The notes under the pieces are model-generated. The model had not been told where the DNA came from and ran no database searches. It was given only the letters and a program-made list of their open reading frames with translations. Source: Gammaproteobacteria bacterium (lineage in GTDB: Bacteria; Pseudomonadota; Gammaproteobacteria; Pseudomonadales; Azotimanducaceae). From it: a stretch of 44,220 nucleotides of DNA. Numbering within the stretch: position 1 is the first letter of the stretch; the number at the start of each line of letters is the position of its first letter. The translations under genes were made by a program, and so were the position numbers. Shown here in pieces: positions 5,251-44,220 of this stretch. The DNA lies in the NCBI GenBank assembly GCA_028821125.1, contig JAPPHD010000127.1, positions 1-44,220 of the forward strand, in the 5' to 3' direction.

Positions 5251-5330
5251 CCGGGCACGTGTTGACAGGGCCGAGCGATCGGCGAGTAGTTCCTATCGAG
5301 ACGCGGGAGGTAAGTCATGCCCTCGTTCCG

Positions 5331-5578: not shown

Positions 5579-5715
5579 CGTCGAACGATATTGCTGCCGC
5601 AATGCAAGATCAGAGAGCCAGCATCCGCAACAAGCGGATTTTCTCTGACCGCGTCTCGGAGCGCGCACCGACCAAGGGACTCATGTGACTAACGTGCATC
5701 CACCCAACTTGGGCG

Positions 5716-10176: not shown

Positions 10177-10405
10177 CGTCGTCGTGACTAGTATGCGCTC
10201 ACCGCGCAGAAAGTCCGGCTTCTGGCCCTGGAAGATGTCTCGGAGGGACCTGAGCCAATAATTCAGAAGTTCCTACCATGACCTGGCAGCAATATTGTGC
10301 AAAGACAGTTAAAGGCGTTAATCCACCCGCGTCGATCGTTCTGATTGCCGACTCCCCAATCGAGCCAGTAAGCGTATCTTCGACCGGACAGGACACTAGG
10401 ACAGA

Positions 10406-10430
10406 GCATAACGGTAGTACAGCGTTATGC
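10406..10430. other. 8-bp perfect inverted repeat upstream of the LRR gene
   Basis: GCATAACG (10406-10413) and CGTTATGC (10423-10430) are separated by 9 bases in the 374-base gap 10177-10550, between a lipoprotein gene and the LRR gene. It has no T-run on either strand, so it may be an operator rather than a terminator. I see no gene in the rest of this gap. Confidence 0.5.
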
Positions 10431-10550
10431 CGGGTCGGATAGCCTCATTATCCTTTTTTGGGGCGCTTGACAAAATTGTGCGTGTCCACAAAATTCGAGA
10501 GTTCGTCATGGCGCCCCGCGACACTCCTCCGGTAGCACGCGGTTGCCTTT

Positions 10551-11108: not shown

Positions 11109-11121
11109 GAGGTTTTTCTTC

Positions 11122-12282: not shown

Positions 12283-13040
12283 AAAATCGGCAGTTCGGAC
12301 ATCAGTGTCTCTACCGCACGACTAGCCGGCTCGGCTTCGCGCAGCGTGCCGCCCGTGGGAGTTCGAAGCCAATTGAACCAGACAACGTCGCCACTTCGCA
12401 GATCTACCAGTGACGAAAACGCCACTTGGCGGCGGGTCGGGACGCCAACACCGAAAAAGGCTCCAATCAACATGACACCAACCCGACCGCTGGTTGCATA
12501 GCTGTCATGGAGATAAACGAAAAGAGCGTAGTCCGCGCCGGATTGTTCTCGTATTTCACGCACCGATTCCGCTCCAAGCGTCCAGTCGAACCGGTTGGAT
12601 TTCGAGGGTAGGGTCTGCGGAACGAGAAACTTGTACTCGACAATAGATGTGCCGACCAGTTCGTAGAGCTTGTTGACTTGATCCAAGGAATGAGCGATCT
12701 CGGATTCCTGCCTGACGGAGTCGTACCGGATCACTTCGGCGCCTGTTTGTTCAAGGAGCTCAGTCAACGCGCTGTTTACATGCCCGAAGCCTTTTTCTGT
12801 CCACTCGGCGTCCGGCTCATGCAACCCGCCGGCGGTCAGTCTGGACAACTGCACGTCTGGCTTCATCAAAAGTACTTTCGTCGCCGGGATGCGATCCGGA
12901 ATGTCAGGGCGCATCAACACGTTGGTCGCACAACCCCCTGCGATCAGGGCGACGCAAAGCAACACGGCGAATGCGGGCCCCTGTCGCAGGACACTCGACC
13001 TTTGTTCTCGTCTAACAGCGAGTACGCGCACTTCTCGCAT
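12279..13040 (-). CDS. putative lipoprotein, unknown function
   Basis: This 253-residue protein has an unusually long basic N-region, then a hydrophobic stretch and the lipobox IAGGC (cysteine 37), so it is probably a lipoprotein. I do not recognise the mature domain. It has an alternating beta/alpha look (KVLLMKPDVQLSRL, SGADYALFVYLHDSYA, VDLRSGDVVWFNW) reminiscent of small periplasmic proteins that accompany envelope systems, but no named family can be assigned. ATG 13040 has a good ribosome-binding site (GGGAGGG). It is the first gene of the minus-strand operon that includes the M48 protease and the second lipoprotein. Confidence 0.78.
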   Translation of the reverse strand: MREVRVLAVRREQRSSVLRQGPAFAVLLCVALIAGGCATNVLMRPDIPDRIPATKVLLMKPDVQLSRLTAGGLHEPDAEWTEKGFGHVNSALTELLEQTGAEVIRYDSVRQESEIAHSLDQVNKLYELVGTSIVEYKFLVPQTLPSKSNRFDWTLGAESVREIREQSGADYALFVYLHDSYATSGRVGVMLIGAFFGVGVPTRRQVAFSSLVDLRSGDVVWFNWLRTPTGGTLREAEPASRAVETLMSELPIL

Positions 13041-13171
13041 ATTGAATTTTCCCTCCCGCTTGATTCCCGGATCGCGAACCAGGATTTAAACGCGACCGCC
13101 TCGGCGCGCGGCTCGACGATTAGCATCCTTCGAAAAAGGATGGACGCTAGGCAATCGCATTTCAAGTGCAG

Positions 13172-13408
13172 GCCGCTGCGGCGGTACGGGGCTTCGACGC
13201 GGTCGTTGCTGACATGCGCTAGGGCGAGTTCCCAGACCTCGCGCGACGCCTCGGTGCATTCGGTGGCCCAGTCCCGGAAGCTGGAGCGGAACCCGTGCGG
13301 CACGGCGTCGATGCCGACCTTGCGCAGGACTTTCGACATTCCGGACTGGCTGGGCATCCGCCCTGTGGCGCTGGAGGCGAACCGGTGCGCCGGCGCGCCG
13401 GGGGGAAA
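13172..13408 (-). pseudogene. C-terminal remnant of a P4-type tyrosine integrase
   Basis: The minus-strand frame reads HGFRSSFRDWATE, then VWELALAHVSNDRVEAPYRRS. These are the active-site Arg, His and Tyr segments of phage-type site-specific recombinases of the P4/DUF4102 group. The N-terminal DNA-binding part and most of the catalytic core are missing. Homology also stops right after YRRS, where the usual LFEKRR ending is replaced by unrelated sequence. The upstream end meets the stop codon of the HDAC gene in the same frame. It is a dead fragment marking an old integration event. Confidence 0.85.
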
Positions 13409-13411
13409 CTG

Positions 13412-14317
13412 CTAGAGCAAACCCCGCACGTGCAGTGCCGCCGAGCGGGCCAGGGCATCCAGGTTGTAGCCGCCCTCCAGCGTCGACACGATACGCCCCG
13501 CGGCGAAGCGTTCGGCGGCATCGACGATGAAACGGGTGATCCAGAGATAATCGTCGTCCTGCAGTTCGAGCCCGGCCAGCGGATCTTCCGCATGGGCGTC
13601 GAAACCGGCCGAGACCAGGATCAGTTCCGGGCGGTGCGATTCGAGGGCCGGCAGCCAGTCCCGTTCCACCGCCATGCGGTAGGCGGCGCTGCCCGTCCCG
13701 GCCGGCAGCGGCGTGTTCACGATGTTGGGGCGATCCACCTGCTGGCGAATTCCGGGATAGTACGGATACTGAAAGCTGGAACAGACCAGCGCTTCCGGCC
13801 GGTCGGCGAACATCTCCACCGTGCCGTTGCCGTGATGCACATCGAAATCAAGAATCGCGACCCGGTCGAGGTCGTCCAGGGCCCGGTCGGCGCCCACCGC
13901 GACGCTGTTGAAGAAACAGAATCCCATGGCGGTTGCGGATTCCGCGTGATGACCGGGTGGGCGCACGGCGCAGAATGCCCGCTTCGAGGTGCCGTCGAGC
14001 GCGTGCTCCACAGCCTGGACCACTGCCCCCGCGGCGAGTCGCGCGGCCCGCTCGGAGCCCGGGCTCAACACTGTGTCCGCATCCACGCGGACATGTCCTT
14101 CCCTGGGGCTCGTCGCGGCGACCGCTTCGATGTAGAAAGGGTCGTGCACGCGGGCCAGGGCGTCGTTTCCCGCAACCGCCGGCTCCACGACCGACAGTTC
14201 ATCCATGAGGCCCTCGACCTGCAGACGGTCGAGAACGGCCGTCAACCGGTCGGGGCGTTCCGGGTGCCCGGGCGGGGTATCGTGCAGACGGCACTCGGGG
14301 TGCGTGAACAGTTCCAT
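13412..14317 (-). CDS. histone-deacetylase-family (acetylpolyamine amidohydrolase-like) enzyme
   Basis: This roughly 300-residue protein belongs to the zinc-dependent deacetylase superfamily that includes bacterial HDAC-like amidohydrolases and acetylpolyamine amidohydrolases. These remove acetyl groups from lysine or polyamine substrates. The active-site elements are intact: RPPGHHA (catalytic histidines), GFCFFNSVA, DFDVHHGNGT (zinc-binding Asp and His), SAGFDAHAEDPLAG (second zinc Asp) and LEGGYN. I start at ATG 14317; an in-frame TTG at 14323 has a better-spaced AGAGG and may be used instead. The in vivo substrate cannot be inferred from neighbours. Confidence 0.94.
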   Translation of the reverse strand: MELFTHPECRLHDTPPGHPERPDRLTAVLDRLQVEGLMDELSVVEPAVAGNDALARVHDPFYIEAVAATSPREGHVRVDADTVLSPGSERAARLAAGAVVQAVEHALDGTSKRAFCAVRPPGHHAESATAMGFCFFNSVAVGADRALDDLDRVAILDFDVHHGNGTVEMFADRPEALVCSSFQYPYYPGIRQQVDRPNIVNTPLPAGTGSAAYRMAVERDWLPALESHRPELILVSAGFDAHAEDPLAGLELQDDDYLWITRFIVDAAERFAAGRIVSTLEGGYNLDALARSAALHVRGLL

Positions 14318-14544
14318 CTGCAAACGATACCTCTACCCGGCGAATTGCACCAATCCGCTTATTGAGTTCACGACTTTCATCGGCTTTCGACTTGCGTCCT
14401 GTCCCACAAGTTTCTTGCACTTCAGCGCGCCGCACGGGGCCTGCGGCGGCGTTGCGACCCTTGGTAATGGGGCGGGCCAGGCCGGCAACCTCCGGAATGC
14501 GGTCTACGCAACAAGCCCCGCGTTCGCGCGGGAGGCGTTCGCGG

Positions 14545-15990
14545 TCACGTGCTCGCCAGCAACTCGCCGACCCGGTCCATCATCTCGTCCTTGTCGTAGA
14601 GGTCGTAGTAGATGGACGCCATGACGTTCTGCGGCCCGAAAAAGAACCGCTCGTAGAGCACCTGCCGGTTGCCGAACCCGGAAACGGCCACGTCGTGGGC
14701 GAGGCGGAACAGGGCCACCCGGTCCCGGCTGTCGAGGTTGACCTGCTGGAAGTAGCGCTCCACGTCGCCGGCGATGTCGTTGCCGAAATCCGATTCGCAG
14801 GGCGTTGCCACCAGCGAGCTCGACCCGATCATGTGCACGGTTTCGATGAGTTTGGGATACAGGCGGGGAAACAGGTTCCGGGACGTATCGAGCGGCCGCC
14901 GTTGCGGAATGTACAGCCCCCACTTGTCCTGTTCCGGCTGTTGTTCCGCACTGAACAGCAGCGCGCGCACGGTCTCCGCGATCCACATGGCTTGGGCGAT
15001 CTGCCCCTTGACGTTCATGTCGCGGTCCTTGCCCGATGCCCTGGCCATGGCGCACAGCAGGCCGACGACGAACTCCGCCTTGGCCAGCTTGCCGCAGGCC
15101 ACCTGGTGCATCATGTGCACCACGGCGTTGGTTTCGGCGAACGCCCGGTTGCAGAGCAGCGGGTCTCCGTACATGAACACGCGCTCCCAGGGAATTAGAA
15201 CGTTGTCGAAGACCACCACCGCGTCCATCTCCTCGAAGCGGGAGGCCAGCGGTGCATCGAAGGTGGACTTGCCCGAGTCGTAGGTGTCGCGGCAGATCAT
15301 GCGCAGGCCCGGCGTGTCGATGGGCAGCGTGAACGCGAAGGCGAAGGGAACGTTCTCTTCGGAAGCCTTGAGCAGCGTGGAGGGAAACACCTCGATCTCA
15401 TTCGCAAGGGGCCCAAGGGTCGCCAGGAGCCGCGCCCCGTTGACGACGATGCCGGCATCGGTTTCCTTGACCGCCTTCAGAGCCACCTCGGGGCTCGACC
15501 GCCCCTGCCGCGCCAGTTCGGCGTTGAACTGGGGGTTGACCAGCGTGTGGGTCAGCACGTAGTCGCGGCCCCGCGCCTCTTCGTAGTACGCGCGCATGTT
15601 GGCCGCGAAGTCCACCGCTCCGCCGTTCTCGTTGAGGAATTCGGCCGCGCCCGCGAAGGCGGTGACCGATGCGTTCTTGTAATCGGGGGTGCGCCCGAGC
15701 ATGCCGTTGGACCACCTGGCCCACTCGTAACAGGCCGCGCCCCGGCGCCGTACATCCTCGGCGCTCCTCGGCAGCAGGAAAGACATCGGGTAACGCTCGC
15801 CGTTCTCGACGAAGGTCATCCTGTCGAGCAGCCCCGCTTCCTGTTGCCGGTCGATAAAGTCAGCGAGGGTCCCGGCACCGCGGGCGAGGCCGGGCTCCCG
15901 GGTCACGTCTTCTACCCGCTTGCCGTGCATCCACACATCGCGCCCGTCGCGCAACGACTCCAGGTACTGCGAACCGCTCTTGATTGCCAT
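14545..15990 (-). CDS. HpaB-family FADH2-dependent monooxygenase (4-hydroxyphenylacetate 3-hydroxylase type)
   Basis: This 481-residue protein is the oxygenase of a two-component flavin monooxygenase, which hydroxylates phenolic or related rings using FADH2 from a separate reductase. Typical family segments are SYLESL-like QYLESLRDGRDVW at the N-terminus, DYVLTHTLVNPQ, IVVNGARLLATLGPLANE, FDNVLIPWERVFMYGD and the C-terminal GNRQVLYERFFFGP. No flavin reductase gene is adjacent, so the partner must lie elsewhere. A MarR regulator starts 500 bases upstream in the same orientation, as in aromatic degradation clusters. The exact substrate is unknown. Confidence 0.92.
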   Translation of the reverse strand: MAIKSGSQYLESLRDGRDVWMHGKRVEDVTREPGLARGAGTLADFIDRQQEAGLLDRMTFVENGERYPMSFLLPRSAEDVRRRGAACYEWARWSNGMLGRTPDYKNASVTAFAGAAEFLNENGGAVDFAANMRAYYEEARGRDYVLTHTLVNPQFNAELARQGRSSPEVALKAVKETDAGIVVNGARLLATLGPLANEIEVFPSTLLKASEENVPFAFAFTLPIDTPGLRMICRDTYDSGKSTFDAPLASRFEEMDAVVVFDNVLIPWERVFMYGDPLLCNRAFAETNAVVHMMHQVACGKLAKAEFVVGLLCAMARASGKDRDMNVKGQIAQAMWIAETVRALLFSAEQQPEQDKWGLYIPQRRPLDTSRNLFPRLYPKLIETVHMIGSSSLVATPCESDFGNDIAGDVERYFQQVNLDSRDRVALFRLAHDVAVSGFGNRQVLYERFFFGPQNVMASIYYDLYDKDEMMDRVGELLAST

Positions 15991-32183: not shown

Positions 32184-34535
32184 GTGGGCAAGCGCGGCAT
32201 GGCAAGAGAGGAGTTCGCGAAGCGATTCGCCGAGCGGGTGCTCTCGGCGCGGTGGCCGGTCATTCTCGGCACGCTGGTCTGGGTTGCGATCGCCTCGGCC
32301 GGCATTGCGCGGCTCGACTTTTCGGCCAACTACCGAATCTTTTTCGACGAGGACAACCCGCAGCTCCTGGCACTGGAAGCGCTGGAGAACACCTACGGGA
32401 AAAACGAGAACGTCGTCTTCCTGATCGTTCCCGACGACGGAAACGCCACTTCGCAAACCGCGCTCTCCGCTGCCGTCTGGCTGACGGAGGAAGCCTGGCA
32501 GACGCCCCATTCCAGGCGCGTCGACTCGCTTGCCAACTTCCAGCACACTACCGCCGACGGCGACGACCTGGTCGTTAAGGACCTGATCGATCCGCAGGTG
32601 CTGGGCGATGCCGAGGCGCGCGCACGAATCCGCGCAATCGCCCTGTCCGACCCGCGGCTGGCCGGCAGCATCATGGGCGTGCACGGCGACGTCAGCGTCG
32701 TCAACGTCACCATTGAACTGCCGGAGGGGGACCAGGTGACGACAGTGGCCGAAGTCGCCGAATTCGCCAGATCCCTTGCCTCACAGGCGGAAGAACGGTT
32801 CGAAGGCATAGACCTGCGCGTGGTCGGCACGGTGATGATCAACCAGACCTTCGTGGAAGCCTCCATCGACAGTCAGATGATCTTCCTGCCGGCAAGCCTT
32901 CTGCTCATGGCTCTGGTCCTTGGCGTCCTTACCCGGGGATTGTCGGGGGTGGCCGCGACCGGTGCAGTCATGGTTTTTTCCATTCTCGCGTCCATTGGCC
33001 TGGGCGGCTGGGCCGGAATGCCGTTTTCCCCGCCTATCGCTCCGGCGCCGACCATCGTGCTGATGATCGTCGTGGCAAATTGCGTTCACATTCTTGTAAG
33101 CCTGCAACAGCGACTGCGCGCCGGGGATTCCAGAAACGATGCCATCGTCGAATGCTTGAGGCTCAACCTGCACCCCGTATTCCTGGCCAGCCTGACCACG
33201 GCGCTCGGATTCCTGAGCATGAATTTCTCGGAAGTGCCGCCCTACCGTCACCTCGGCATCTTCATCGCATTCGGGATCGGAGCCTCCTTCGTTCTCTCCG
33301 TCACCTTTCTGCCGGCCCTGCTTTCGCTCATGCCCATCCGGGCCGGTTCCGACCGGCGGCTCGGCGGGCACCTGTTGAGCGCCATGGCGGATTTTGCCCT
33401 GCGCTACAGAAAGCCGCTGATTTTCGGATGGGCAGCCGTGGTGGTCGCGATGGTGCTCGCCATACCACGCAATGAACTCAACGACGTGCTGGTGCATTTC
33501 TTCGATGAGAGCGTGGAGTTCCGGCGCGATACCGATTTCATGGATGAGCGGCTCAGCGGCAATACCGTGCTCGACTACTCTCTCGAAGCGCCTACCTCGG
33601 GGGGCGTCACCGATCCCCTATTCCTCACCGACGTTTCGAACTTCGCCGAATGGTTCCGTGAGCAGCCCTCGGTACGCAACGTATCGGTCATCACCGACAC
33701 ATTCCGGCAACTCAACCAGAGCATGCACGGCGACGCCGAGGATGCGTACCGGATTCCCGAGACCCGGGGGCTGGCGGCCCAATACCTGCTGCTCTACGAA
33801 CTCTCTCTGCCGCTGGGCCTGGACCTCAACAACCAGATCGACACCACGAGGTCGGCTACGCGCATGACGGTATCCGCAGAGACGCTCTATTCCCGGGACC
33901 TGCTCGATCTGAATGCCCGTGCCGAGGCCTGGCACCAGGAGAACGCAACGCATATCGCCGGGATCAACAGTACCGGCCCGTCGGCGCTGTTCGCCTACAT
34001 CGGGCAGCGAAACATCCAGGCCATGCTGATCGGGACGCTGGTCGTGCTGCTGGCCATTTCGGCGATTCTTCTTTTCGCCCTGCGCTCCCCGCGGCTCGGA
34101 CTGGTGAGCATCGTCCCCAACCTGCTTCCCGCCGTGATGGGCTTCGGCATCTGGGGGCTGACGGTGGGGCAGGTGGGGCTCTCGCTTTCCGTGGTGGCGG
34201 CCATGACGATCGGCATCGTCGTCGACGACACGGTGCATTTTCTGGCCAAGTACCGGCGCGCACGCAACGAATACGGCCACGGCCCCGAGCAGGCGGTGCA
34301 CTATGCTTTCGAGACGGCCGGCCGGGCGTTGTTCACCACGACGCTGGTGCTGGTAATCGGTTTCCTGATATTCGCATTTTCCCCGTTCATTCCCACCGCG
34401 CAGGTCGGGGTGCTGGTCTCCATGATCATCGGATTCGCACTCATTGCCGACCTGTCGCTACTGCCGGCGCTATTGACGACGGTGGACCGAAGTTCCGAGG
34501 AGGCTGCAAAGAGTCATGTTCAACAATCCGTTTAA
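32184..34535 (+). CDS. RND-superfamily (MMPL/HAE3-like) exporter
   Basis: This 783-residue inner-membrane protein has the duplicated RND plan: helix 1 (about 24-42), a periplasmic domain (about 45-228), helices 2-6 (about 231-375), helix 7 (about 410-425), a second periplasmic domain (about 430-605) and helices 8-12 (about 612-770). Conserved helix signatures are the SLTTALGFLSMNFSEVPPYR segment and IGIVVDDTVHFLAKYRRA. It belongs to the MMPL-like group that moves lipids and other hydrophobic molecules, which includes HpnN of hopanoid transport. GTG 32184 follows AGAGG. The last 20 bases overlap the next gene, so the RND pump is coupled to the NHLM export genes. Confidence 0.92.
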   Translation: MGKRGMAREEFAKRFAERVLSARWPVILGTLVWVAIASAGIARLDFSANYRIFFDEDNPQLLALEALENTYGKNENVVFLIVPDDGNATSQTALSAAVWLTEEAWQTPHSRRVDSLANFQHTTADGDDLVVKDLIDPQVLGDAEARARIRAIALSDPRLAGSIMGVHGDVSVVNVTIELPEGDQVTTVAEVAEFARSLASQAEERFEGIDLRVVGTVMINQTFVEASIDSQMIFLPASLLLMALVLGVLTRGLSGVAATGAVMVFSILASIGLGGWAGMPFSPPIAPAPTIVLMIVVANCVHILVSLQQRLRAGDSRNDAIVECLRLNLHPVFLASLTTALGFLSMNFSEVPPYRHLGIFIAFGIGASFVLSVTFLPALLSLMPIRAGSDRRLGGHLLSAMADFALRYRKPLIFGWAAVVVAMVLAIPRNELNDVLVHFFDESVEFRRDTDFMDERLSGNTVLDYSLEAPTSGGVTDPLFLTDVSNFAEWFREQPSVRNVSVITDTFRQLNQSMHGDAEDAYRIPETRGLAAQYLLLYELSLPLGLDLNNQIDTTRSATRMTVSAETLYSRDLLDLNARAEAWHQENATHIAGINSTGPSALFAYIGQRNIQAMLIGTLVVLLAISAILLFALRSPRLGLVSIVPNLLPAVMGFGIWGLTVGQVGLSLSVVAAMTIGIVVDDTVHFLAKYRRARNEYGHGPEQAVHYAFETAGRALFTTTLVLVIGFLIFAFSPFIPTAQVGVLVSMIIGFALIADLSLLPALLTTVDRSSEEAAKSHVQQSV

Positions 34536-35064
34536 CTCGTTTCACGATACGGTTGCCGAAGCAAAGGAAGAGCGCGAACAACTCGACCGGCTGTTGACGA
34601 TTTCCACACCGCGGGAGCGTCTGCTCGTAGCCGCCATCGCGCTGATGCTATCGGTGGTACTTGGCTGGCTCTTTCTCGGTAACGTGAGCCGGAGCCTCGC
34701 ATTCGAAGGCGTTCTGGTCGAGCCGGAAGAAATCCCGGTCGACGGCAACCGGTCTGTCCAGGCGCTGGTGTGGATCAGGAGCGATGTCGGGCAGCAGATC
34801 GTCCCCGGCATGCCGGCGGCACTCGAGTTGGCCATGGCTGACGGCGAACGTGGCAAACTTGACGGAGAGATCGCGACGATAACGGCCCTGCCCCTGTCGG
34901 AGGAAGTCGCGGCGCTAGGGCCCGCGCCGCCGGTATCCGCGCACCGCCTGGCCATCTTGCTTGATCCAGACACGGATCGCGCTTCCCTTGCCGGCAGCAA
35001 GGCCCGGATCGTCATCGGGCTCGGCAGGCAGCCTCCAGCTACGATTTTCGGGATGAGGCGATAG
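34516..35064 (+). CDS. minimal HlyD-like (NHLM-type) secretion protein
   Basis: This 182-residue protein has one N-terminal transmembrane helix (about 38-56, LLVAAIALMLSVVLGWLFLG) and a short periplasmic part. After the helix it resembles the last part of NHLM secretion proteins (TIGR03794 type): VQALVWIRSDVGQQIVPGMP, then a beta-rich segment ending in ARIVIGLG. Full HlyD-family proteins have about 400 residues with a lipoyl domain and coiled-coil hairpin; both are absent here, and no frameshift is evident. It would bridge an ABC exporter to the periplasm. It overlaps the RND gene by 20 bases, and the next gene begins 4 bases after its stop. Confidence 0.72.
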   Translation: MFNNPFNSFHDTVAEAKEEREQLDRLLTISTPRERLLVAAIALMLSVVLGWLFLGNVSRSLAFEGVLVEPEEIPVDGNRSVQALVWIRSDVGQQIVPGMPAALELAMADGERGKLDGEIATITALPLSEEVAALGPAPPVSAHRLAILLDPDTDRASLAGSKARIVIGLGRQPPATIFGMRR

Positions 35065-35068
35065 CAGG

Positions 35069-37279
35069 ATGCCGCCGCGCGCCTCCAAGGGAGGAAGCAA
35101 ACGAAGGGCGTCAGAGCCCTCGAAGCAAAGGGTAACCACACCGATCCTGTTGCAGATGCACGCCACGGAATGCGGCGCCGCCAGTCTGGGCAGCGTATTG
35201 GGCCATTTCGGGCGTTTCGTGCCGCTTACGGAACTGCGCGACAAGTGCGAGGTCAGCCGGGACGGCAGCAGCGCCGCGAGCATCGCGCGCGCCGCCAGGC
35301 ATTACGGTCTTGAGTGCAAGGGGCTCAGCGTGCGCGCCGACCAACTGAAGATGCTGCCGTTGCCCCTGATCCTGTTCTGGCAATTCAGCCATTTCCTCGT
35401 ACTCGAAGGGATCGACGACCGCAACTTCCATCTCAATGACCCCGCAACCGGACGACGCACGATCTCCGCGGAAGAGTTCGTCAAGGGTTTCAGCGGAATC
35501 GCGCTGCGATTCAAACGCGGAGACGACTTCGAACCCGGCGGCGACCGGCCCGGTCTGCTCACCCAACTGGGCACCCTGGTCGCCGGGTCATGGAGCGTAC
35601 TCGCGGGGGTGATTGCCTGCGCAATCATGCTCACGTTGCTGGCACTGATCGTTCCCGCATCGCTCGGTGTTTTCGTGGACGATGTCCTGGCGAATCATGG
35701 ACCCTGGGGCAGCCTGGTTGCGGCCCTGCTTCTCGGCGGTGTTCTTGTATACGTCCTGTCCCTGCTCAAGCACAGATTCCTGAAGCGGTTCGCCGTCCGG
35801 ATTTCCGTGACCGGCTACAACCGTGGCTTGTCCAGGCTGCTGCGGTTGCCCGTGCAGTTCTTTCACCACCGGCTGGTCGGCGACCTGACCGACCGGGTTT
35901 CCTCCATCGACCGAGTCGCGAAAAACCTGACGGACCAGTTTCTCGTGCTCATCGTCGACATGGCGATGAGCGCGGTCCTGCTGGCGGTCATGCTGACCTA
36001 CGACGTCCTGCTAACGTTGATCGTGGTGTTATTGGCGGTCTTGCACGGCGTGCTGGCGCATTTCCTCAACGCGCGGCGTGCCGTTCGCAGCCAGGCGATG
36101 AGGCGCGAACAGGGATTGCTGATCGGTGTCGGCATGCAGATGCTGAGCCATGCGGACAACCTGCGCATGACCGGATCGGATGACAGGTTCTTCTCCCGCT
36201 GGAGCGGTCAGCAGGCCCGCGAACTGCACGCGCGCCAGCTCCATTGTGAACTGGGCTCCGTCAATACCGCTCTTCCGGGCCTGATCGCCATGCTGCGCGC
36301 CGCGGCGATCCTGGGTGTCGGGGGAGGTCTGGTCATGACAGGACAAATGAGCCTGGGCACGCTTGTCGGGTTCTATATCCTCGCGGAGCTGTTTCTGACC
36401 CCGGTCGGGCGATTTCTGGAGTTCGCCGACAAACGCCAGGCGCTGGAGACCGACCTGCAGCGCCTGGAAGACATCTCGAGCACGGCGGAAGACCCCGTAT
36501 TCAGCCGCCGGAGTCCGGAATCGGATTCGATCCCCACGTTCAACGGCCGGCTCCAGCTCGCAGGCCAACTCGAACTGCGGGACATTACCTTCGGTTACAA
36601 CAAGAGCCGGCCACCCTTGATCAAGGATTTCAATCTCGAGATCAAGCCCGGGCAGCGCGTTGCCGTGGTCGGCCCGAGCGGTTCCGGAAAGTCGACCCTG
36701 GCGCGCCTGGTTTCAGGCATCTATCAGCCGTGGTCGGGCGAAATCCTGTTCGACGGCCATCCCCGGGACGAAATTCCCGAGGAAGTGCTGCGCCGGTCCG
36801 TTTCCATGGTCGATCAGGAGGTCGTGCTGTTTTCCGCCTCAGTGCGCGACAACATTACCTTGTGGAACCCGGCGGTACCTGACGAGGTCATCGTCGGCGC
36901 CACTCGGGATGCCTGCATTCATGACGAGATCCTGGTCAGGCCGCAGGGATATGCGACCCTGGTCGAGGAGGGCGGCGCAAATTTCAGCGGGGGCCAGCGG
37001 CAACGGCTGGAAATCGCCCGTGCGCTGGTGGGCAATCCGACCGTGCTCATCCTGGACGAGGCGACCAGCGCTCTCGATGCCGCGACGGAAGAAACCGTTG
37101 ACGATGCCCTGCGGCGGCGTGGCGTCACCTGCCTGATCGTGGCGCACCGGCTGAGCACCGTGCGCGATTGCGACGAGATCATCGTGCTCGAGGCGGGCGT
37201 CGAAGTGCAGCGCGGCACCCATGACGAGTTGATCGCGGACGAAAACGGCGCCTATCACAAGCTGGTGAAGTCAGGCTGA
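35069..37279 (+). CDS. NHLM-type ABC exporter with N-terminal C39 leader peptidase
   Basis: This 736-residue protein cleaves a leader after a double-glycine-type site and exports the cargo. Residues about 22-150 form the C39 cysteine peptidase: oxyanion glutamine 29, cysteine 35 in ATECGAASL, histidine 108 in FSHFLVLEG and aspartate 124 in LNDPATG. Then come six membrane helices (about 170-450) and the ATPase with Walker A GPSGSGKS (535-542), signature FSGGQRQ (639-645), Walker B VLILDEATS and switch histidine 693. All catalytic positions look intact. It matches the peptidase/ATP-binding partner of NHLM systems. Its stop overlaps the next start by one base. Confidence 0.94.
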   Translation: MPPRASKGGSKRRASEPSKQRVTTPILLQMHATECGAASLGSVLGHFGRFVPLTELRDKCEVSRDGSSAASIARAARHYGLECKGLSVRADQLKMLPLPLILFWQFSHFLVLEGIDDRNFHLNDPATGRRTISAEEFVKGFSGIALRFKRGDDFEPGGDRPGLLTQLGTLVAGSWSVLAGVIACAIMLTLLALIVPASLGVFVDDVLANHGPWGSLVAALLLGGVLVYVLSLLKHRFLKRFAVRISVTGYNRGLSRLLRLPVQFFHHRLVGDLTDRVSSIDRVAKNLTDQFLVLIVDMAMSAVLLAVMLTYDVLLTLIVVLLAVLHGVLAHFLNARRAVRSQAMRREQGLLIGVGMQMLSHADNLRMTGSDDRFFSRWSGQQARELHARQLHCELGSVNTALPGLIAMLRAAAILGVGGGLVMTGQMSLGTLVGFYILAELFLTPVGRFLEFADKRQALETDLQRLEDISSTAEDPVFSRRSPESDSIPTFNGRLQLAGQLELRDITFGYNKSRPPLIKDFNLEIKPGQRVAVVGPSGSGKSTLARLVSGIYQPWSGEILFDGHPRDEIPEEVLRRSVSMVDQEVVLFSASVRDNITLWNPAVPDEVIVGATRDACIHDEILVRPQGYATLVEEGGANFSGGQRQRLEIARALVGNPTVLILDEATSALDAATEETVDDALRRRGVTCLIVAHRLSTVRDCDEIIVLEAGVEVQRGTHDELIADENGAYHKLVKSG

Positions 37280-40224
37280 TGGGCGAATCCGGCCCGGAAT
37301 TCCTATCGCTCGCCGAGCTCGCGGCGCGCACCGGCACATCCGTGCCCTGCGCCGGCAACCTGCCGGTGAAACTCGACGACGATGAGAGCGTCTGGTTCAT
37401 CGATCAGGGCGTTGTCGATCTGTTCCTGGTGGAATTCAGGGACGGGGTGGAGCAGGCGGCGCCGCAGCACCTGCTGCGCCGCGAAGCGGGCAGCCTGCTT
37501 CCGGGTGTCGCACCGGACGAACAGGACGGCAACGAGAAGGACACGACGCTCAGCCTGATCGCCAAGGGATTGCCGGGCACCCTTCTGAAACGCCTGCCGG
37601 CAGCCAGGCTGTCCGGGATCTACCCGTCGGAACTTGCAGAACAGACCGATACCTGGCTGAGCGACATCACCGACACGTTGTCACGTTTCGTAAGCCGCCT
37701 TCCGCGTCCGACCGCCCTTGCCGAGCCCGGCCTGACCCAGAACCTGGAACCCTGCACGCTATCTGCACGGCGAGGCGTGGTCTGGGTTTCCGAACCGTCA
37801 CGCGGCGCCAGCCTCTTCATGGACATGGTCGACCAGGCGGAACTCGCCGAGGCAAGTAGCCCGCGCGAAGCGGTGCTGCCGTTGACGCGGACGAGCTGGC
37901 TTACCCTGTTCGGCGAGGCGACGGTTTCGGGCCGGTCCACCCAAACGCTGGCGCAGCAGGGAAAGCTGCTGCCGGCGTTGGCCACGTTTCACGCGGTTGC
38001 ATTCAACCTGGAACGCCTCAACCGCCGGCTGGCCGTGGTCGATGACGCGAACCTCGAACGAGAACGGACCACCAGCCGCCGCACGGCCGAACGAGCTGCC
38101 AGAGCGCGGCTTTTCAATATCTATGACCTGCCGGTCGACCGGGATGCCCAGGTCGAGGATACGGCGCTGGCGGACGCCCTGCAAAGCATCGGCCGCCACC
38201 AGGGAATCGAATTCAGGGTTCCCTCGCGCTCGGGACCGTCCGATTCCCCTGTCGGCCTCGTTGACATTCTCGACACATCAGGCGTGCGCGCCCGGCGTTT
38301 GCGGCTCAACGCCAGGCGCAACTGGTGGCGCGGTGACAGCGGCGCGATGCTGGCCTTCCGCGCCGAAGACGGACAACCCGTGGCGCTCCTGCCCGGATCA
38401 CTGGGCGGATATCGTGAGGTCGACCCGGTCACCAGGCGCAGCGTGCGGGTCACGGCAGCTCGCGCCGGGGCCCTTGCGCCGGAAGCCTGGATGTTCTATC
38501 GGCCTCTGCCGGAAGGGAACGTCGAAGCGGCCGACCTGATGAACATGGCCTTTCGTGGATCGGGCGGAGACCTGGTGCGGCTGGTCCTGGCCGGGCTTCC
38601 GGGCGGCCTGATCAAGCTGTTGCCCGCACTCGCACTTGGGTTCGTTGCGAGTCATGTTGCCGCGGGAGGAAGCGCCGGGGCACTCTATGCCCTTGCGGTG
38701 GCTCTGGCCGGGTTCGGCCTGCTCGGAGCATTGCTGCACCTGCTGCAAAGTACGGCGATGATGCGGCTCGAAGGGCGCTCGGCCTCCAGGGTCGAAGCAG
38801 CATTCTGGGATCGCCTGATGCGCCTTCCGCCAAGCGTTCTGAACCGGCATTCCGCGGGAGACCTGGCCATGTCGGGCATGACGTTTCAGAATCTTCGCGA
38901 TGGTTTGCAGGGCGTCGTCGCCGACAGCCTGCTGTCGGTCGTTTTTCTGCTGCCGGTTTTCGCTGTCATCTTCTTCTACGATGCCACCCTCGGCCTCATC
39001 GCCCTGGCATTCAGCCTGGCTTCTCTCCTGGTTGCGCTAGCCCTTGGATTGCGCCAGATTTCACCGCACGGGCGGATGATCAGCGCGGCGCGGCGCGTGG
39101 CCGGCCGTCTTTTCCAGATCGTGGACGGCATCGCCAAGCTGCGGGTGGAAAACGCGGAAGGATCCGCTTTCGCCATCTGGGCCCGCGACTACCGCGAGCA
39201 GAAACGGGCGGAACTCGAACTCGACGCGCTCGAAGGGCATTCGCGCGCATTCGCTGCCGCTCTACCCTTTCTTGCCGGTGGGGTATTGCTTTTCGCGGTG
39301 GTGGCGGTGGGAGACCGGAACGTGCCGGTCGGCGACTTTCTCGTGGTCTACATCGTCTTCATCGCTTTTCAGTCGGCCATTGCCCGCCTCGGCGAGTCCT
39401 TCGGCACCGTCGCCGCCATGCTGCCGGCGTTCGATCAGATGCGCCCACTGCTTGCTGCAAATCCCGAATCCGAGGTGGAAGGAGAGCCGGTCGACCGCCT
39501 GGGCGGCGAGATTCTGTTCGACCGCATTTCCTTCCGCTACGATCCCGACGGCCCGCTGGTTCTCGACGATGTCACCATTCACGCGCGCCCCGGCGAATTC
39601 GTGGCGATCGCCGGCGAGTCCGGTGCCGGCAAGAGCACCCTGTTCCGGCTCGCACTCGGCATCGACCGGCCTTCCGCCGGCGCGGTGTACTACGACGGAC
39701 GGGATCTCCGGCACCTGAACCTGAAACAGGTGCGCCGCAGGATCGGCGCGGTGCCCCAGTCGGTGCGGCTCCATCCCCAGGATCTCTGGGACAATATCGT
39801 TGCGCACCACGAGGGAACGACCACCGCAGAAGTGTGGGAAACGGCCCGGACCGCCGTAATCGAACGCGAGATCAAGGCCATGCCCATGGGCATGATGACC
39901 ATGGTCGGCGCCAGTGGGGGTGTGCTGTCCGGCGGCGAGAGTCAGCGGGTCACCATCGCCCGGTCACTGATCGGCAATCTGCGAATCATGCTGCTTGACG
40001 AGGCGACCAACTGGCTCGACAACGAGAGTCAGGCCGAGGTCATGCGCAACCTGGCAAAGCTGAGCTCCACCCGGGTCGTCATCGCCCATCGCCTGTCCAC
40101 GCTGGAACAGGCCGACCGCATCTACGTTCTGCAGGCCGGCAGAGTCGTGCAAAGCGGCTCTTTCGAGGAACTCATGGAAGTAGAGGGCATTTTCAGGGAA
40201 TTGGTCAGCAGGCAGATCGCCTGA
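37279..40224 (+). CDS. second NHLM-type ABC transporter (permease/ATP-binding) with long N-terminal extension
   Basis: This 981-residue protein matches the second ABC transporter of NHLM systems (TIGR03797 type). Its first roughly 430 residues have no peptidase motif; the start looks like a degenerate cyclic-nucleotide-binding-like fold (DDDESVWFIDQGVVDLFLVE). Membrane helices span about 435-710 and the ATPase about 740-981: Walker A GESGAGKST (779-787), signature LSGGESQ (883-889), Walker B IMLLDEAT and histidine 937. The Walker B region reads DEATNWLD where most exporters have DEATSALD. It overlaps the C39 transporter gene by one base, and the pair is expected to work together as a complex. 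Confidence 0.92.
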   Translation: MGESGPEFLSLAELAARTGTSVPCAGNLPVKLDDDESVWFIDQGVVDLFLVEFRDGVEQAAPQHLLRREAGSLLPGVAPDEQDGNEKDTTLSLIAKGLPGTLLKRLPAARLSGIYPSELAEQTDTWLSDITDTLSRFVSRLPRPTALAEPGLTQNLEPCTLSARRGVVWVSEPSRGASLFMDMVDQAELAEASSPREAVLPLTRTSWLTLFGEATVSGRSTQTLAQQGKLLPALATFHAVAFNLERLNRRLAVVDDANLERERTTSRRTAERAARARLFNIYDLPVDRDAQVEDTALADALQSIGRHQGIEFRVPSRSGPSDSPVGLVDILDTSGVRARRLRLNARRNWWRGDSGAMLAFRAEDGQPVALLPGSLGGYREVDPVTRRSVRVTAARAGALAPEAWMFYRPLPEGNVEAADLMNMAFRGSGGDLVRLVLAGLPGGLIKLLPALALGFVASHVAAGGSAGALYALAVALAGFGLLGALLHLLQSTAMMRLEGRSASRVEAAFWDRLMRLPPSVLNRHSAGDLAMSGMTFQNLRDGLQGVVADSLLSVVFLLPVFAVIFFYDATLGLIALAFSLASLLVALALGLRQISPHGRMISAARRVAGRLFQIVDGIAKLRVENAEGSAFAIWARDYREQKRAELELDALEGHSRAFAAALPFLAGGVLLFAVVAVGDRNVPVGDFLVVYIVFIAFQSAIARLGESFGTVAAMLPAFDQMRPLLAANPESEVEGEPVDRLGGEILFDRISFRYDPDGPLVLDDVTIHARPGEFVAIAGESGAGKSTLFRLALGIDRPSAGAVYYDGRDLRHLNLKQVRRRIGAVPQSVRLHPQDLWDNIVAHHEGTTTAEVWETARTAVIEREIKAMPMGMMTMVGASGGVLSGGESQRVTIARSLIGNLRIMLLDEATNWLDNESQAEVMRNLAKLSSTRVVIAHRLSTLEQADRIYVLQAGRVVQSGSFEELMEVEGIFRELVSRQIA

Positions 40225-40237
40225 GCAGGATCGGTCG

Positions 40238-41557
40238 ATGAGGGAGCGAATCGACGCAACCGAACGCCTGCTGTCAAGAGCGGTGCAAGACAGCGAGTTT
40301 CGTGCGCGCCTGCTCGCGGACCCGAAAGACGCTATTGAGCGGGAGTTCGGGGTGACGCTGGCCGACGGCCGGGAAATCCAGGTTCACGAAGAATCGGATG
40401 CCGTGACGCACCTGGTGCTTCCGCCGCAAGGCAGGTTCAGCGACGAAGAACGGGAGGAGGCGAGAACCGGCGCAACCTCGCTCGAGTTCCTGAAGAAGAC
40501 CATGTACGATCCCGCGCCTCCCATGCGTCCCGCCGCCCCGAAACCGGCGGCTGAACGGGGCGATTTCCATACGTCCGAGGCGCTGGCGCAGGCGGGCAGG
40601 GAGAGCATCCGCCGCGGTCTCGCCTTCCTGGCCTCAACGATCAACGAAAACGGGGCCTGGCACTGCATCCGGTTCAATGTGGCGGACCGGAAAATCCCGC
40701 GCCATTTCGAAAGACCGCCTTTTATCTCAGCGTTCTGCGTACTTGCCCTGGAAAGCAGCGAAGAAGCCGAGGCCAAGGCCATCTGCGCCGCGACCAGGAA
40801 GTACCTGGTCGACACCATGGAGTATCCGGGGTTGTGGCGCTACTACCGCCATCTGCCCCAGGATCTCGACAGCAGCGCGCTCTGTTCGCTCGTTCTTGCA
40901 GACCCGCCGTCCCACCCCTGGATACTGCTCGGAAGAAACGTATCTCAAATGAAGGCGAATCGCGACGAGGACGGTCTTTTCATGACCTGGGTGCTGGCTG
41001 AGGGCGAGCCCGACGTAGTATCCAGATTTCGAATCGAAGCCGACCCCGTCGTCAATGCGAACGTCATCGCCTACCTGGGCGACTGTCCGGAAACCAGGAG
41101 TGCGCAGGCGTGGCTGGAAGCCTCGATTACCGAAGGCAACCTCGAGGGCTCCTCCAAATGGTACCCGGACATGGTGTCGCTCTACTATGCAGCCTCCCGC
41201 GCCATGATCCGTACGCAACCCGCCCTCGATGGACTGCGCCCCGTGCTTGCCGACCGAATCCTGGATTTGCGGGACGAGCGGGAAGGCTTCGGCAACGTCT
41301 TTCAGACCGCCCAGGCAGTCTCCGCGCTCTTCAATATCGGATGCCTTGGATGCCTTGAAAGCACCGATGCGAAACGTGAACTGGAGACATTCATCGGTTC
41401 GCAACGGGAGGACGGCAGTTGGCCGGAGCTTCTCGCGTTCGGTGACCGGTCGCTGAAGTGGGGCAGCATCGGGCAGATCGGCCATGGTTCCGAATCCGTT
41501 ACCTCCGCGTTCTGCATCGAAGCCATGGAGAGGCTCGTCGAGACCCTGAGTGCCTGA
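40238..41557 (+). CDS. NHLP-type leader fused to a terpene-cyclase-like alpha/alpha-toroid domain
   Basis: The 439-residue protein starts with an NHLP-like leader (about 1-79): EFRARLLADPKDAIEREFGV, then LADGREIQVHEE and HLVLPP, ending FSDEEREEARTGA. That end has the position of the LSDEELE-A-GG cleavage region of known NHLP leaders, with Gly78-Ala79 as the double-glycine equivalent. After a proline-rich linker (about 92-106), residues about 120-435 look like a prenyltransferase/squalene-cyclase toroid, with QW-like motifs GLAFLASTINENGAW and FIGSQREDGSW (385-395). QDLDSSA (208-214) lies where class II cyclases have DxDDTA. The gene follows the two ABC transporters by 13 bases. I infer an exported leader-bearing protein; enzymatic activity is open. 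Confidence 0.82.
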   Translation: MRERIDATERLLSRAVQDSEFRARLLADPKDAIEREFGVTLADGREIQVHEESDAVTHLVLPPQGRFSDEEREEARTGATSLEFLKKTMYDPAPPMRPAAPKPAAERGDFHTSEALAQAGRESIRRGLAFLASTINENGAWHCIRFNVADRKIPRHFERPPFISAFCVLALESSEEAEAKAICAATRKYLVDTMEYPGLWRYYRHLPQDLDSSALCSLVLADPPSHPWILLGRNVSQMKANRDEDGLFMTWVLAEGEPDVVSRFRIEADPVVNANVIAYLGDCPETRSAQAWLEASITEGNLEGSSKWYPDMVSLYYAASRAMIRTQPALDGLRPVLADRILDLRDEREGFGNVFQTAQAVSALFNIGCLGCLESTDAKRELETFIGSQREDGSWPELLAFGDRSLKWGSIGQIGHGSESVTSAFCIEAMERLVETLSA

Positions 41558-41634
41558 ACGGTCGGCGGATTACCTGGTCCGGTGGTACCATAAACCCCGA
41601 TATAAGGGAGCAATCGTCCACCAGAGAAGCTGCC

Positions 41635-44085
41635 ATGCCGCAGGATACAGCCGCAGGAGGTGCCTTGGGCGCAGACGGGGCTGACATCGCGCAGCACATC
41701 GAGCCGTCGATCCGTAACGCCCTGCCGCACTATCTGCCTCTGGGCATTTTTCCGTTGATTTTTCTCGCCGCGCTCCATGGCGGCTGGTGGCTGTTGCCCG
41801 CATTCCTGTTCATGAGTGTCGCGGGGCCGCTGGACCGGGTGCTCGGTCGCGACGGGCGCAACATGGACCCGGCGAATACGCCGCAACGCCGGCTTCTGTG
41901 GCACAACCTGCCCGTATGGGGATGGGCACTCCTGTGGCCACCGACACTCATCTTCGGCCTGTGGCAGATCCTTGTCGCGAATCCGTTCGCAATCTGGGAG
42001 GACGTGGTCCTGGCGATCATCCTGACCATGGAAGCCCAGGCCGTATTCGTGGTCGGCCACGAACTGGTTCATCGGCGCTCCACCTGGGAACGGCGGCTCG
42101 GCGAATTCCTGCTCGCTTCCGCTTCCTATCCGCAATACGCCACGGAACATGTCTATATCCACCATGCCAAGGTCGGCACACCGCATGACGTGGGTTCCGC
42201 GCCGAAAGGGGAGAGCTTCTGGAGGTATTTTCCGAGGGAAATCATCAGCAACCTCACCAATTCCTGGAAAGTCTCTGGCGAGCGCCTGGCGCGGCGGCGC
42301 CTGTCCCGGTGGCACTACAGCAACCCGTTCTGGCGCTACGGCATGGGCCTGGCGTTCTGGTATGGGCTGGTGTTCTGGATGAGCGGGATCTGGGCGGTTC
42401 TGGTCTTTGCCTTCCTGGGCTATTCCTGCGTCTTCTCGATGAAAATCAGCAACTACTTCCAGCACTACGGCCTGCGCCGCGTCCGCCTGCCGAACGGCCG
42501 GTGGGAAAAGGTGATGCCACGCCATTCCTGGAGCGCCGACTGGAAATTCAGCAACTGGATGTTCTTCAACATGCAGCGCCATGCGGACCATCATGCGATG
42601 GCGACCCGCCACTACCCGCTGCTGCAGGTTCACGATCCCGGTGAATCGCCGGAGTTGCCGGGGACCTACGGCGACATGATGAACATCGTGCTGCGGCCGA
42701 AGCGCTGGTTCGAGAAGATGGATCCGCTGGTGGATCAATGGCGCAAGCATTTCTATCCGGAGATCGATGACTGGAGCGCCTACGACAGCCCGATCGCCGC
42801 GGCGCGACCCGAAGCCTTCGAAGCGATCGTCGAGATCTTCGGCGCCGCTCCGCGACTGGCCGGTTGGATCGAGCGCAACCCCGAGCTTCTTGAAAACCTG
42901 CAGGACCGGGAATTCACCGATCTCGATCTGCCGAAGGGTTTCATGCCGGATCAGGACTACGAGGCGATTGCGCGGCGCGGGCTCGCGAGACTCTATTGGA
43001 CGCTGGAGATGGGCGTTCAGGAAATGAAGGAGCTGATAGCCGAACTGCCCATGGCCGATGCCAGGGATTCCGCTGAAATCGTGCGCAACTGGACCAACGA
43101 CAAGGCATTTCAGATCGGCATGCACGTGGTGCGCGGCAACCTCACGCCACAGGAGGCTCGGATTGCACTGTCCAATCTCGCTGAAGCGTCGATATCGTCC
43201 GTACTGGCTGCCGTGGTTGCTGACTTTGAGGACCGGCGTGGTTCACTGGGCGCAGGCGGCGTCGCTGCCATTGCCGTGGGTGATCTCGCCAGCCGGGAAG
43301 CCTATCCCGGCTTGGTGATCGAAGTGTTGTTTGTCCATGACGAATCGGGAACCGACGAAATCGAACGCCTGTGCGAACAGTTCCGGATAACCCTATCCGG
43401 GCTGGGCCAGGACAACCTGTTGTTTTCTGCCGGCCCTGGTGATGCGGGTTCCCAACCTGCGCTGGCGCTGTCCGAGCTGGCCGGGCGGTTCGCAGATCCC
43501 GCTTCCGGTGCCATCCCTGTCCTGACCAGGGCGCGCTGCCTGTTCGAGTGCGGCGATTCCGAAATCGGCAAGCGTTTCAGCGAAGTCCGGCGCGGACTCC
43601 TCGCCGAGTGCGGCGACAACGAGCGCCTGATCGACCGGCTGCGCGAACCGCCGAAGGATCCCGGCGAGACAGCCGCGCTCAGCTACACCCACATGCGCGG
43701 CGGGCTTGACGACATCGAGAAGGCGGCTCGATTCCTGCAATTGACAGAATTGGCAGAATTGACAGAATTGACAAACAGCACAAAAAGCGCGGATGGCACG
43801 GACGGCGAAGGCGATCTCGAGGCTTCTGCCCCTACGGCGACGGAGGTGTTCAACCAGGCCGGGATAGAACCGCTTGCCCGGGCCGCGGCCATGTGGCGCG
43901 ACCTGCAGGGAATCACGCACCTCATCGGCAACGAAGGCTTCGAGTTGAGCGCGGCAGGGCCCAAGGTCAGGTCTCTCGTTGCGAACGCTTGCGGTCACCC
44001 GGATTTCGATTCGCTGAATGCGGTGCTCGCAGCTACCGCATCGAGTGCTGGCACCGAAATCGACGCGCTGCTTTCACGCGCGTGA
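41635..44085 (+). CDS. AlkB-type membrane diiron hydroxylase fused to a degenerate GlnE-like domain
   Basis: Residues about 1-375 of this 816-residue protein are an integral-membrane alkane/fatty-acid hydroxylase: GHELVHRR (141-148), EHVYIHHAKVG (171-181), NYFQHYGL (273-280) and NMQRHADHH (312-320) supply the histidine boxes for two irons. From about 400 the sequence follows one half of glutamine synthetase adenylyltransferase GlnE: LAGWIERNPELLENL, an IAVGDLASREAYPGLVIEVL strand, RARCLFECGDSEIGKRF and HMRGGLDDIEKAARFLQL. The GlnE metal motif SDxDL is replaced around 559-565, so nucleotidyl transfer is unlikely. I start at ATG 41635; the open frame upstream overlaps the previous gene. It lies 77 bases after the leader-cyclase gene and is the last gene seen. 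Confidence 0.85.
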   Translation: MPQDTAAGGALGADGADIAQHIEPSIRNALPHYLPLGIFPLIFLAALHGGWWLLPAFLFMSVAGPLDRVLGRDGRNMDPANTPQRRLLWHNLPVWGWALLWPPTLIFGLWQILVANPFAIWEDVVLAIILTMEAQAVFVVGHELVHRRSTWERRLGEFLLASASYPQYATEHVYIHHAKVGTPHDVGSAPKGESFWRYFPREIISNLTNSWKVSGERLARRRLSRWHYSNPFWRYGMGLAFWYGLVFWMSGIWAVLVFAFLGYSCVFSMKISNYFQHYGLRRVRLPNGRWEKVMPRHSWSADWKFSNWMFFNMQRHADHHAMATRHYPLLQVHDPGESPELPGTYGDMMNIVLRPKRWFEKMDPLVDQWRKHFYPEIDDWSAYDSPIAAARPEAFEAIVEIFGAAPRLAGWIERNPELLENLQDREFTDLDLPKGFMPDQDYEAIARRGLARLYWTLEMGVQEMKELIAELPMADARDSAEIVRNWTNDKAFQIGMHVVRGNLTPQEARIALSNLAEASISSVLAAVVADFEDRRGSLGAGGVAAIAVGDLASREAYPGLVIEVLFVHDESGTDEIERLCEQFRITLSGLGQDNLLFSAGPGDAGSQPALALSELAGRFADPASGAIPVLTRARCLFECGDSEIGKRFSEVRRGLLAECGDNERLIDRLREPPKDPGETAALSYTHMRGGLDDIEKAARFLQLTELAELTELTNSTKSADGTDGEGDLEASAPTATEVFNQAGIEPLARAAAMWRDLQGITHLIGNEGFELSAAGPKVRSLVANACGHPDFDSLNAVLAATASSAGTEIDALLSRA
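43741..43776 (+). repeat. 9-base tandem repeat inside the GlnE-like domain
   Basis: Four units of TTGACAGAA-type sequence (TTGACAGAA, TTGGCAGAA, TTGACAGAA, TTGACAAAC) encode Leu-Thr-Glu, Leu-Ala-Glu, Leu-Thr-Glu, Leu-Thr-Asn. The repeat is AT-richer than its surroundings and precedes a Ser/Thr/Asp/Gly-rich linker, at the point where GlnE-like helices are interrupted. It is probably a slippage-expanded linker that may vary in length between strains. Confidence 0.8.
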
Positions 44086-44220
44086 AAGCGACGGCCGTTC
44101 CGGCGCGGAAACTCCGGATGCAAGTCGGCAACCCGGCGCGCCGGCGCGCTGACGTACAGGGAACACCCGCCGTTCGCAGGGAGAGAGTGGGTGTGCGGTG
44201 CGGACATCCGGCACCTTTAA
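44086..44220. other. non-coding right edge
   Basis: After the AlkB-GlnE stop there is a GC-only palindrome around 44136-44150 (core GGCGCGCC) and no supported gene to the edge. No intrinsic terminator with a T-run is visible, so the operon may continue beyond the window. Confidence 0.5.

Follow-up and report, generated by a model that had tools for sequence, protein, structure and literature searches.

In the srp clusters of sponge microbiomes, the precursor peptide SrpE has the core LCCCW, the three cysteines are converted to thiazolines by the YcaO enzyme SrpC, and the C-terminal tryptophan is brominated by SrpI (PMC10858898, PMC10286304). The accessible parts of these descriptions stop at the thiazolines and the bromine, and name no final product. 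A second relevant system is NctPC, in which an ABBA prenyltransferase and an MstE-like cyclase are joined in a single protein; according to the accessible part of a review (PMC13290415), it geranylgeranylates tryptophan and cyclises the attached chain. Here we describe a locus on contig JAPPHD010000127.1 (C38) of the Gammaproteobacteria bacterium assembly GCA_028821125.1 (5.28 Mb, 193 contigs); the window is this entire contig of 44,220 nucleotides. At positions 32184-44085 it carries six tightly packed open reading frames on the plus strand, encoding an RND/MMPL-family transporter, a mini HlyD-like protein, an NHLM ABC transporter with a C39 peptidase (C39-ABC), a second NHLM ABC transporter (ABC2), a fusion of an NHLP-type leader with a toroid domain (leader-toroid) and a fusion of an AlkB-like hydroxylase with a GlnE-like domain (AlkB-GlnE). 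The locus is almost certainly the opening portion of an srp-type proteusin cluster, which is interrupted where the contig ends in a dispersed repeat.

The evidence comes from relatives. A search of 97 genomes, the window's own included, found full-length orthologues of the leader-toroid in seven others, and each of the seven has another, short frame with a leader 6-8 kb downstream of this gene, on the opposite strand. Past AlkB-GlnE the row of genes in these relatives consists of a gene for a protein of about 780 residues, which overlaps AlkB-GlnE or starts within about 60 bases of it, a gene for a protein of about 370 residues and a convergent gene for an NHLP precursor of about 83 residues. 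The ~780-residue protein of G014 is a YcaO with a leader-binding domain (TIGR03882, 137.7 bits with a cut-off of 36.9; TIGR03604, 273.3 with a cut-off of 219.25). Seven further loci from named genome records have the same gene set, and YcaO, the ~370-residue protein and the NHLP precursor were found in 14 of 14 loci (in L043 the stretch holds only the last 219 residues of YcaO); the precursor is farther away behind an insertion in L041, and upstream, in a different order, in L043. The 34 precursor rows comprise 32 distinct proteins and two repeats, the precursor of G500, cut by a contig end, having been excluded; 31 of the 32 end in LCCCW and one (G008) in LSCCW. A cluster-type halogenase of the Trp-halogenase family (about 420-450 residues) lies near the precursor in 11 of the 14 stretches, and is in pieces in G014. 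The order HlyD, C39-ABC, ABC2, leader-toroid, AlkB-GlnE recurs wherever the stretches cover it (several do not reach all the exporter genes), with protein identities between orthologues of 52-83%, or 35-58% for HlyD, and the grouping is therefore not due to chance.

A previous sequence-only reading of the window had recognised the six packed genes and taken them for one conserved system with NHLM-type export, and both statements are borne out. Its remark that there is no short precursor is true only of C38, because the contig terminates at position 44220, 135 bases 3' of the AlkB-GlnE stop codon; the canonical NHLP precursor whose presence just outside the window that reading had named as a point against itself does exist in the relatives, at a place that here lies past the contig end. 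The 439-residue leader-toroid does appear to bear an NHLP-type leader, but in the relatives the SrpE-type precursor bears one as well. The contig ends with a dispersed repeat of about 100 bases (44118..44220, no strand assigned), for which the matches listed number 43, spread over 32 contigs of this genome; at least eight copies are located 40 bases or less from a contig start. The repeat is probably the cause of this and other breaks in the assembly, and a contig break at a repeat is an ordinary event.

The ~370-residue protein had no match by sequence in Pfam, NCBIfam or the PDB. Its structural model is good (predicted local distance difference test, pLDDT, 84; predicted TM-score, pTM, 0.85) and consists of repeated units of a helix and paired strands, which form a barrel. 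Foldseek gave 699 matches at E <= 10, and the 50 listed are without exception ABBA-fold prenyltransferases of the aromatic, indole or peptide type, AmbP3, FamD1, PagF, LimF and KgpF among them. Judged from the model, the protein looks like an ABBA prenyltransferase. Of 206 family genomes, 37 have both this protein and the toroid; the toroid was found without it in G000 and G636, where in each case a contig end interrupts the sequence, and it was found without the toroid in G625 and G629.

The leader-toroid gene (40238..41557, plus strand) encodes 439 residues, and its toroid domain (residues ~120-439, 40595..41554, plus strand) was assigned from fold matches and a profile alignment. A profile of ten toroid domains matched drimenol synthase in hmmsearch with an E-value of 5.6e-10, the best match by sequence among solved structures. 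The conserved P-x-D-l-D-s-t of the toroids, which in the window is the DxDS at residues 209-212 (40862..40873, plus strand), falls on the DxDTT of drimenol synthase, and both aspartates of the DxD are invariant in all ten aligned domains. Foldseek with the cyclase model returned 14 matches at E <= 0.001, all of them class II terpene cyclases, MstE included. The score for Pfam SQHop_cyclase_C, 21.9, is under the cut-off of 26.1. With a toroid fold and a DxD(D/T/S) acid motif both present, the domain looks like a class II terpene cyclase, for which a protonation-initiated cyclisation of a prenyl chain is predicted. It was found in 39 of the 206 family genomes: 35 copies are full-length (the window's included), one, in G503, is broken into three pieces with stops, and three (G046, G624 and G505) are leaderless and stand beside separate NHLP precursors with other cores. 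A wide spread across the phylum was considered and rejected: among 398 sampled genomes we found only the window's own genome and a weak partial match in G402.

The leader-like domain of the cyclase (residues ~7-72, 40256..40453, plus strand) scores 50.8 bits with TIGR03793, just under the cut-off of 50.9. We compared 35 leader-toroids, the window's included (36 alignment rows less one same-contig duplicate; four come from named records only, and the set covers those family copies that were fetched), with the 34 SrpE rows. At eleven positions a single residue, common to the two groups, accounts for 90% or more of each, and ten of these sit in the folded part of the leader. The folded nucleus is kept and the L(x)4L motif is lost, its second leucine being R or K in 35 of 35 leader-toroids. 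As far as the accessible text of the sources goes, this motif is needed by a proteusin YcaO (PMC12455567) and by SrpI (PMC10858898). The residue two before the invariant glycine of the would-be cleavage site is R or K in 33 of 35, unlike in SrpE, and the junction differs from the AG-L that, together with L(x)4L, marks a substrate leader. Close to the place of the SrpE core lies a conserved 15-residue linker (residues ~81-95, 40478..40522, plus strand), whose mean pairwise identity in 15 sequences, 0.86, was the highest of the five regions compared; the toroid followed with 0.65, then the leader nucleus (0.54), the leader tail (0.53) and the spacer (0.25).

Taken as a whole, the observations are probably best explained by a pathway in which the SrpE-type peptide is thiazoline-modified, brominated and prenylated, the prenyl chain is cyclised and perhaps hydroxylated, and the product is cleaved and exported; the terpenylation steps in it are, on balance, probable. 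The substrate would be the short SrpE-type precursor, not the leader-toroid. SrpE would be bound via its leader, and the srp literature would supply two steps, conversion of the three cysteines to thiazolines by SrpC and bromination of the C-terminal tryptophan by SrpI. Before or after the bromination, the putative ~370-residue prenyltransferase would attach an isoprenoid to the core; the likeliest acceptor is the tryptophan, because after formation of three thiazolines this is the nucleophilic side chain left in LCCCW. Prenylation would be followed by cyclisation of the prenyl chain by the toroid, and it is a reasonable guess that the AlkB-like enzyme hydroxylates the terpene part. Going by their families, the C39-ABC would cleave at AG/L and export the product jointly with ABC2 and HlyD, and also with the RND transporter in those clusters that have it.

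The alternative that survives best, although we consider it unlikely, is that a free lipid or terpenoid is produced or modified by the toroid together with the prenyltransferase, and is exported alongside the peptide without being joined to it. An HpnN-like RND pump and an AlkB-like hydroxylase would suit such a product, and there are drimenol synthase entries that, according to their titles, have farnesyl pyrophosphate or farnesyl thiol bound. It is harder to reconcile with the peptide leader domain on the cyclase, with the peptide-bound precedent of NctPC, and with the company that both proteins keep, as they accompany NHLP precursors also outside the srp clusters. G046 and G624 are single-contig genomes from two species within a genus, and in both of them the NHLP precursor or precursors, a prenyltransferase-like gene, a leaderless cyclase and a polyprenyl synthase follow one another (L031 8400-12471; L136 3356-6757), which also favours the terpenylation reading. 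The precursor copies nearest the cyclase have cores that, as read, end in SRIVPHSH; no YcaO match was found in these two stretches. Both genomes have three polyprenyl synthases, the copy in the row being the extra one, vs. two in six other genomes searched, one of which (G505) is only 77% complete. The prenyltransferase without the cyclase is seen on contig C21 of G014 (L033 ~3400-15600), where a second NHLM proteusin cluster has two prenyltransferase paralogues and three precursors ending in ECIC, CQC and CACM; there was no cyclase match in the stretch read, and this cluster is possibly a prenylated, cyclase-free counterpart. The ~370-residue protein thus keeps company with NHLP peptides, and its acceptor residue may vary.

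It is rather improbable that the toroid is no longer an enzyme, having DxDS in place of DxDD, and serves as a leader-carrying scaffold or decoy which regulates SrpC, SrpI or the C39 peptidase. Such a role would agree with the retention of the leader domain and of the serine after DxD in all 15 full-length orthologues aligned, and with a folded nucleus kept while the modification motif was lost. A serine or threonine after DxD need not mean inactivity, because DxDTT in drimenol synthase and DADST in a myxobacterial squalene-hopene-type cyclase stand at the same place in terpene cyclases with solved structures. The toroid is, moreover, more conserved than the leader nucleus, and the fused forms retain DGSW from the late repeat motif. 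The sequence-only reading had suggested that the cyclase-like protein is exported; that the leader-toroid, as the cyclase or as a peptide cut out of it, is the cargo of the C39/NHLM exporter is very unlikely, since its near-threshold NHLP score, the position of its gene directly after the exporters, and an invariant glycine, mostly followed by alanine or valine, near the leader end with a conserved stretch at a core-like place are set against a canonical precursor in all 14 loci, the R or K at the two leader positions described above, and leaderless cyclases that manage without a leader beside separate precursors.

The loss of L(x)4L makes docking likelier than export of the cyclase, and the leader domain is most likely a docking module to the NHLP-handling machinery and not a substrate leader. 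Other leader-fused enzymes were looked for in G046 and G624, where long open frames contained only ordinary precursors. Returning to terpenylation of the SrpE-type peptide, we put forward tentatively a fuller picture of the srp product, namely a bromotryptophan tris-thiazoline peptide with a cyclised, perhaps hydroxylated terpene, made with the help of a cyclase that recruits itself through its own NHLP leader fold.

A number of observations weigh against this explanation. The cyclase model, built with eight sequences, is weak and of low to medium confidence (pLDDT 62, pTM 0.64), and the TM-scores of the relevant matches are modest for both the cyclase and the prenyltransferase fold (about 0.4-0.57). 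The residue after DxD is serine in the aligned fused forms, and aspartate or serine in the leaderless ones. The prenyltransferase-like frame of G505 has a stop, no polyprenyl synthase was found on the cluster contig of G000, G006, G014 or G015, and the cluster contig of G047 had no match to the Trp-halogenase family. Tryptophan need not be the acceptor, because paralogues of the prenyltransferase occur with precursors whose cores lack it (those ending in ECIC, CQC and CACM in G014, and the His/Tyr core in G046 and G624). The RND gene lacks generality, as described below.

The strain's own assembly adds to these points. A search for an SrpE-type precursor in it returned the leader-toroid itself and one weak match, the best match to a cluster-type YcaO was only 27% identical, and the gene for the ~370-residue prenyltransferase was not found. 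The C-terminal half of a cluster-type halogenase, a putative SrpI-type brominase, is present on another contig, C23 (6,786 bases), the start of which is 59-80% identical to ten cluster halogenases of relatives; the same ten are 22-27% identical to halogenases of other loci (six compared, five with matches). In one locus where the stretch is complete (L040/L069), about 7 kb separate the AlkB-GlnE stop from the corresponding position in the halogenase. We considered that the missing genes simply lie in a gap and that C23 opens inside the brominase. This was dropped on account of the repeat on C38 and of bases 1-52 of C23, which are unrelated, include an in-frame stop and are found at a single place in the assembly. 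The likeness to relatives starts sharply at base 53 of C23 and stops sharply on C38 about 26 bases past the AlkB-GlnE stop, where the repeat starts. Because this likeness breaks off at both contig ends, the genes for YcaO, the prenyltransferase and the precursor may be lost or broken in this strain, and not merely hidden in a gap. It must be noted that the probabilities given here apply to the system in the relatives and are unchanged by the findings at these contig ends.

The exporter genes are all on the plus strand. The RND/MMPL transporter (32184..34535, 783 residues) matches Pfam MMPL above the cut-off with 105.5 bits; its top NCBIfam match, HpnN, reached 122.5 bits, far under the cut-off of 751.85. 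An orthologue was found in six of the 14 loci, some stretches being too short to reach it. The copy of L038 is at a different place, and none was found in G015 and L039, although these stretches reach far enough. We therefore rejected the RND pump as a fixed part of the cluster, and of the gene order that the sequence-only reading had proposed to look for, it is the part from HlyD to AlkB-GlnE that recurs. The transporter, facultative in the cluster, is possibly an exporter of a lipid or lipopeptide. The mini HlyD-like protein (34516..35064, 182 residues) matches the NHLM HlyD model TIGR03794 in its N-terminal part only (positions 6-58 of 421; 28.2 bits vs. the cut-off of 156.2). The C39-ABC (35069..37279, 736 residues) has 850 bits with TIGR03796, narrowly under the cut-off of 853.3, and 115.3 bits with PF03412, and ABC2 (37279..40224, 981 residues) has 686.5 bits with TIGR03797, narrowly under 709.4. 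The family labels given earlier to these genes and to the leader fit the domain matches, but none of the three NHLM export models was matched above its cut-off, TIGR03793 was also just missed, and TIGR03794 was covered at its start only. Judged by domain content, the set would work as an NHLM export system.

The AlkB-GlnE gene (41635..44085, plus strand), found in 13 of the 14 loci, encodes an AlkB-like membrane diiron hydroxylase fused to a GlnE-like domain. Its open reading frame opens at GTG 41458, and ATG 41635 is the more likely start because the orthologues align from there. The AlkB-like part matches PF00487 (FA_desaturase) with 93.9 bits, and the GlnE-like part PF03710 with 26.2 bits (cut-off 24). 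We read the alignment against what we take to be the consensus of the membrane diiron His boxes and of the GlnE motif: in all seven sequences listed, of 12 aligned, the His boxes are present and the catalytic acidic pair of GlnE is degenerate. For this reason the GlnE-like domain was rejected as an active adenylyltransferase. In G002 (L028 4211-8926, minus strand) AlkB-GlnE and YcaO form a single open frame of 1571 residues, possibly a further fusion.

Some features of the loci stand apart from the pathway. The named relatives are metagenome bins that carry the labels Gammaproteobacteria, Rhodobacteraceae, Boseongicola and Nitrospira, and are presumably of sponge origin. In L037, the locus labelled Nitrospira, the cluster genes are 69-77% identical to those of proteobacterial loci and the precursor 90%, which indicates either mis-binning or transfer. 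An antiparallel gene resembling flavin adenine dinucleotide (FAD) amine oxidases lies between ABC2 and the leader-toroid in only two of the 14 loci (L025 11393-12829 and L026 11311-12765), and at the same place in L029 (5315-7092) there are two inserted frames, which we take to resemble a regulator/HipA-type pair. Further full-length genes of the Trp-halogenase family (G000:C50 and C56, G014:C2 and others), several in neighbouring pairs, encode proteins that, in the cases compared, share only 22-27% identity with the cluster halogenase. A different family of proteusin precursors, with cores ending in HPIF(H/R)D or HPIFHDN, was seen in the same bacterial family (L126, L129, L131-L134). The window itself also encodes a leucine-rich-repeat protein of 1486 residues (5716-10176, minus strand).

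The occurrence of an ABBA-fold prenyltransferase and a class II terpene cyclase in one conserved cluster predicts a further modification of the peptide and a mass range, so that the product can be looked for in sponge extracts and in co-expression experiments. If its leader is a docking domain, the cyclase would be a natural enzyme that uses the recognition fold of the substrate, which could be useful in peptide engineering. The locus is also an example of how a precursor can wrongly be taken as absent when a contig ends too early. In the limited open-licence literature available, outside of which are the founding srp and NctPC papers, nothing was found that describes srp peptides as terpenylated or reports a terpene cyclase with a fused NHLP leader; a prior annotation is possible.

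It is instructive to compare the locus with the known systems. Both ABC transporters, the HlyD-like protein and the NHLP leaders are shared with the NHLM systems defined by TIGR03793, TIGR03794, TIGR03796 and TIGR03797, the differences being an HlyD protein cut down to its N-terminal part and ABC and leader scores just under the equivalog cut-offs. The toroid resembles the drimenol synthases (9mhs, 9m7d) and MstE (6sbc-6sbg) in its class II terpene cyclase fold and, for drimenol synthase, in the aligned acid motif; the drimenol synthases have, according to the entry names, a HAD-type domain, MstE is a single domain, and no leader is named in the entry titles. The srp pair has in common with NctPC an ABBA-fold prenyltransferase, an MstE-like monodomain cyclase and a ribosomal peptide substrate, and fits an unfused version of it. 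It differs in that the two are separate genes, never one chain, in the 14 loci, the cyclase has an NHLP leader-like domain, and YcaO, a halogenase and the AlkB-like hydroxylase are present alongside. ChrPC, as described in the accessible part of the review, likewise acts on peptide tryptophan with a prenyltransferase and a cyclase domain, but these are fused and the prenyltransferase is of a trans-IDS-like fold, not ABBA (PMC13290415). With the srp clusters, for which the comparison is limited to SrpE, SrpC and SrpI, the relatives share the LCCCW-type NHLP precursor, the YcaO with a leader-binding domain and, in most of them, a flavin halogenase of about 430 residues, whereas the window has only the exporter, cyclase and hydroxylase part. 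The cluster is of a known kind, and what is new is the functional prediction that its peptide is terpenylated.

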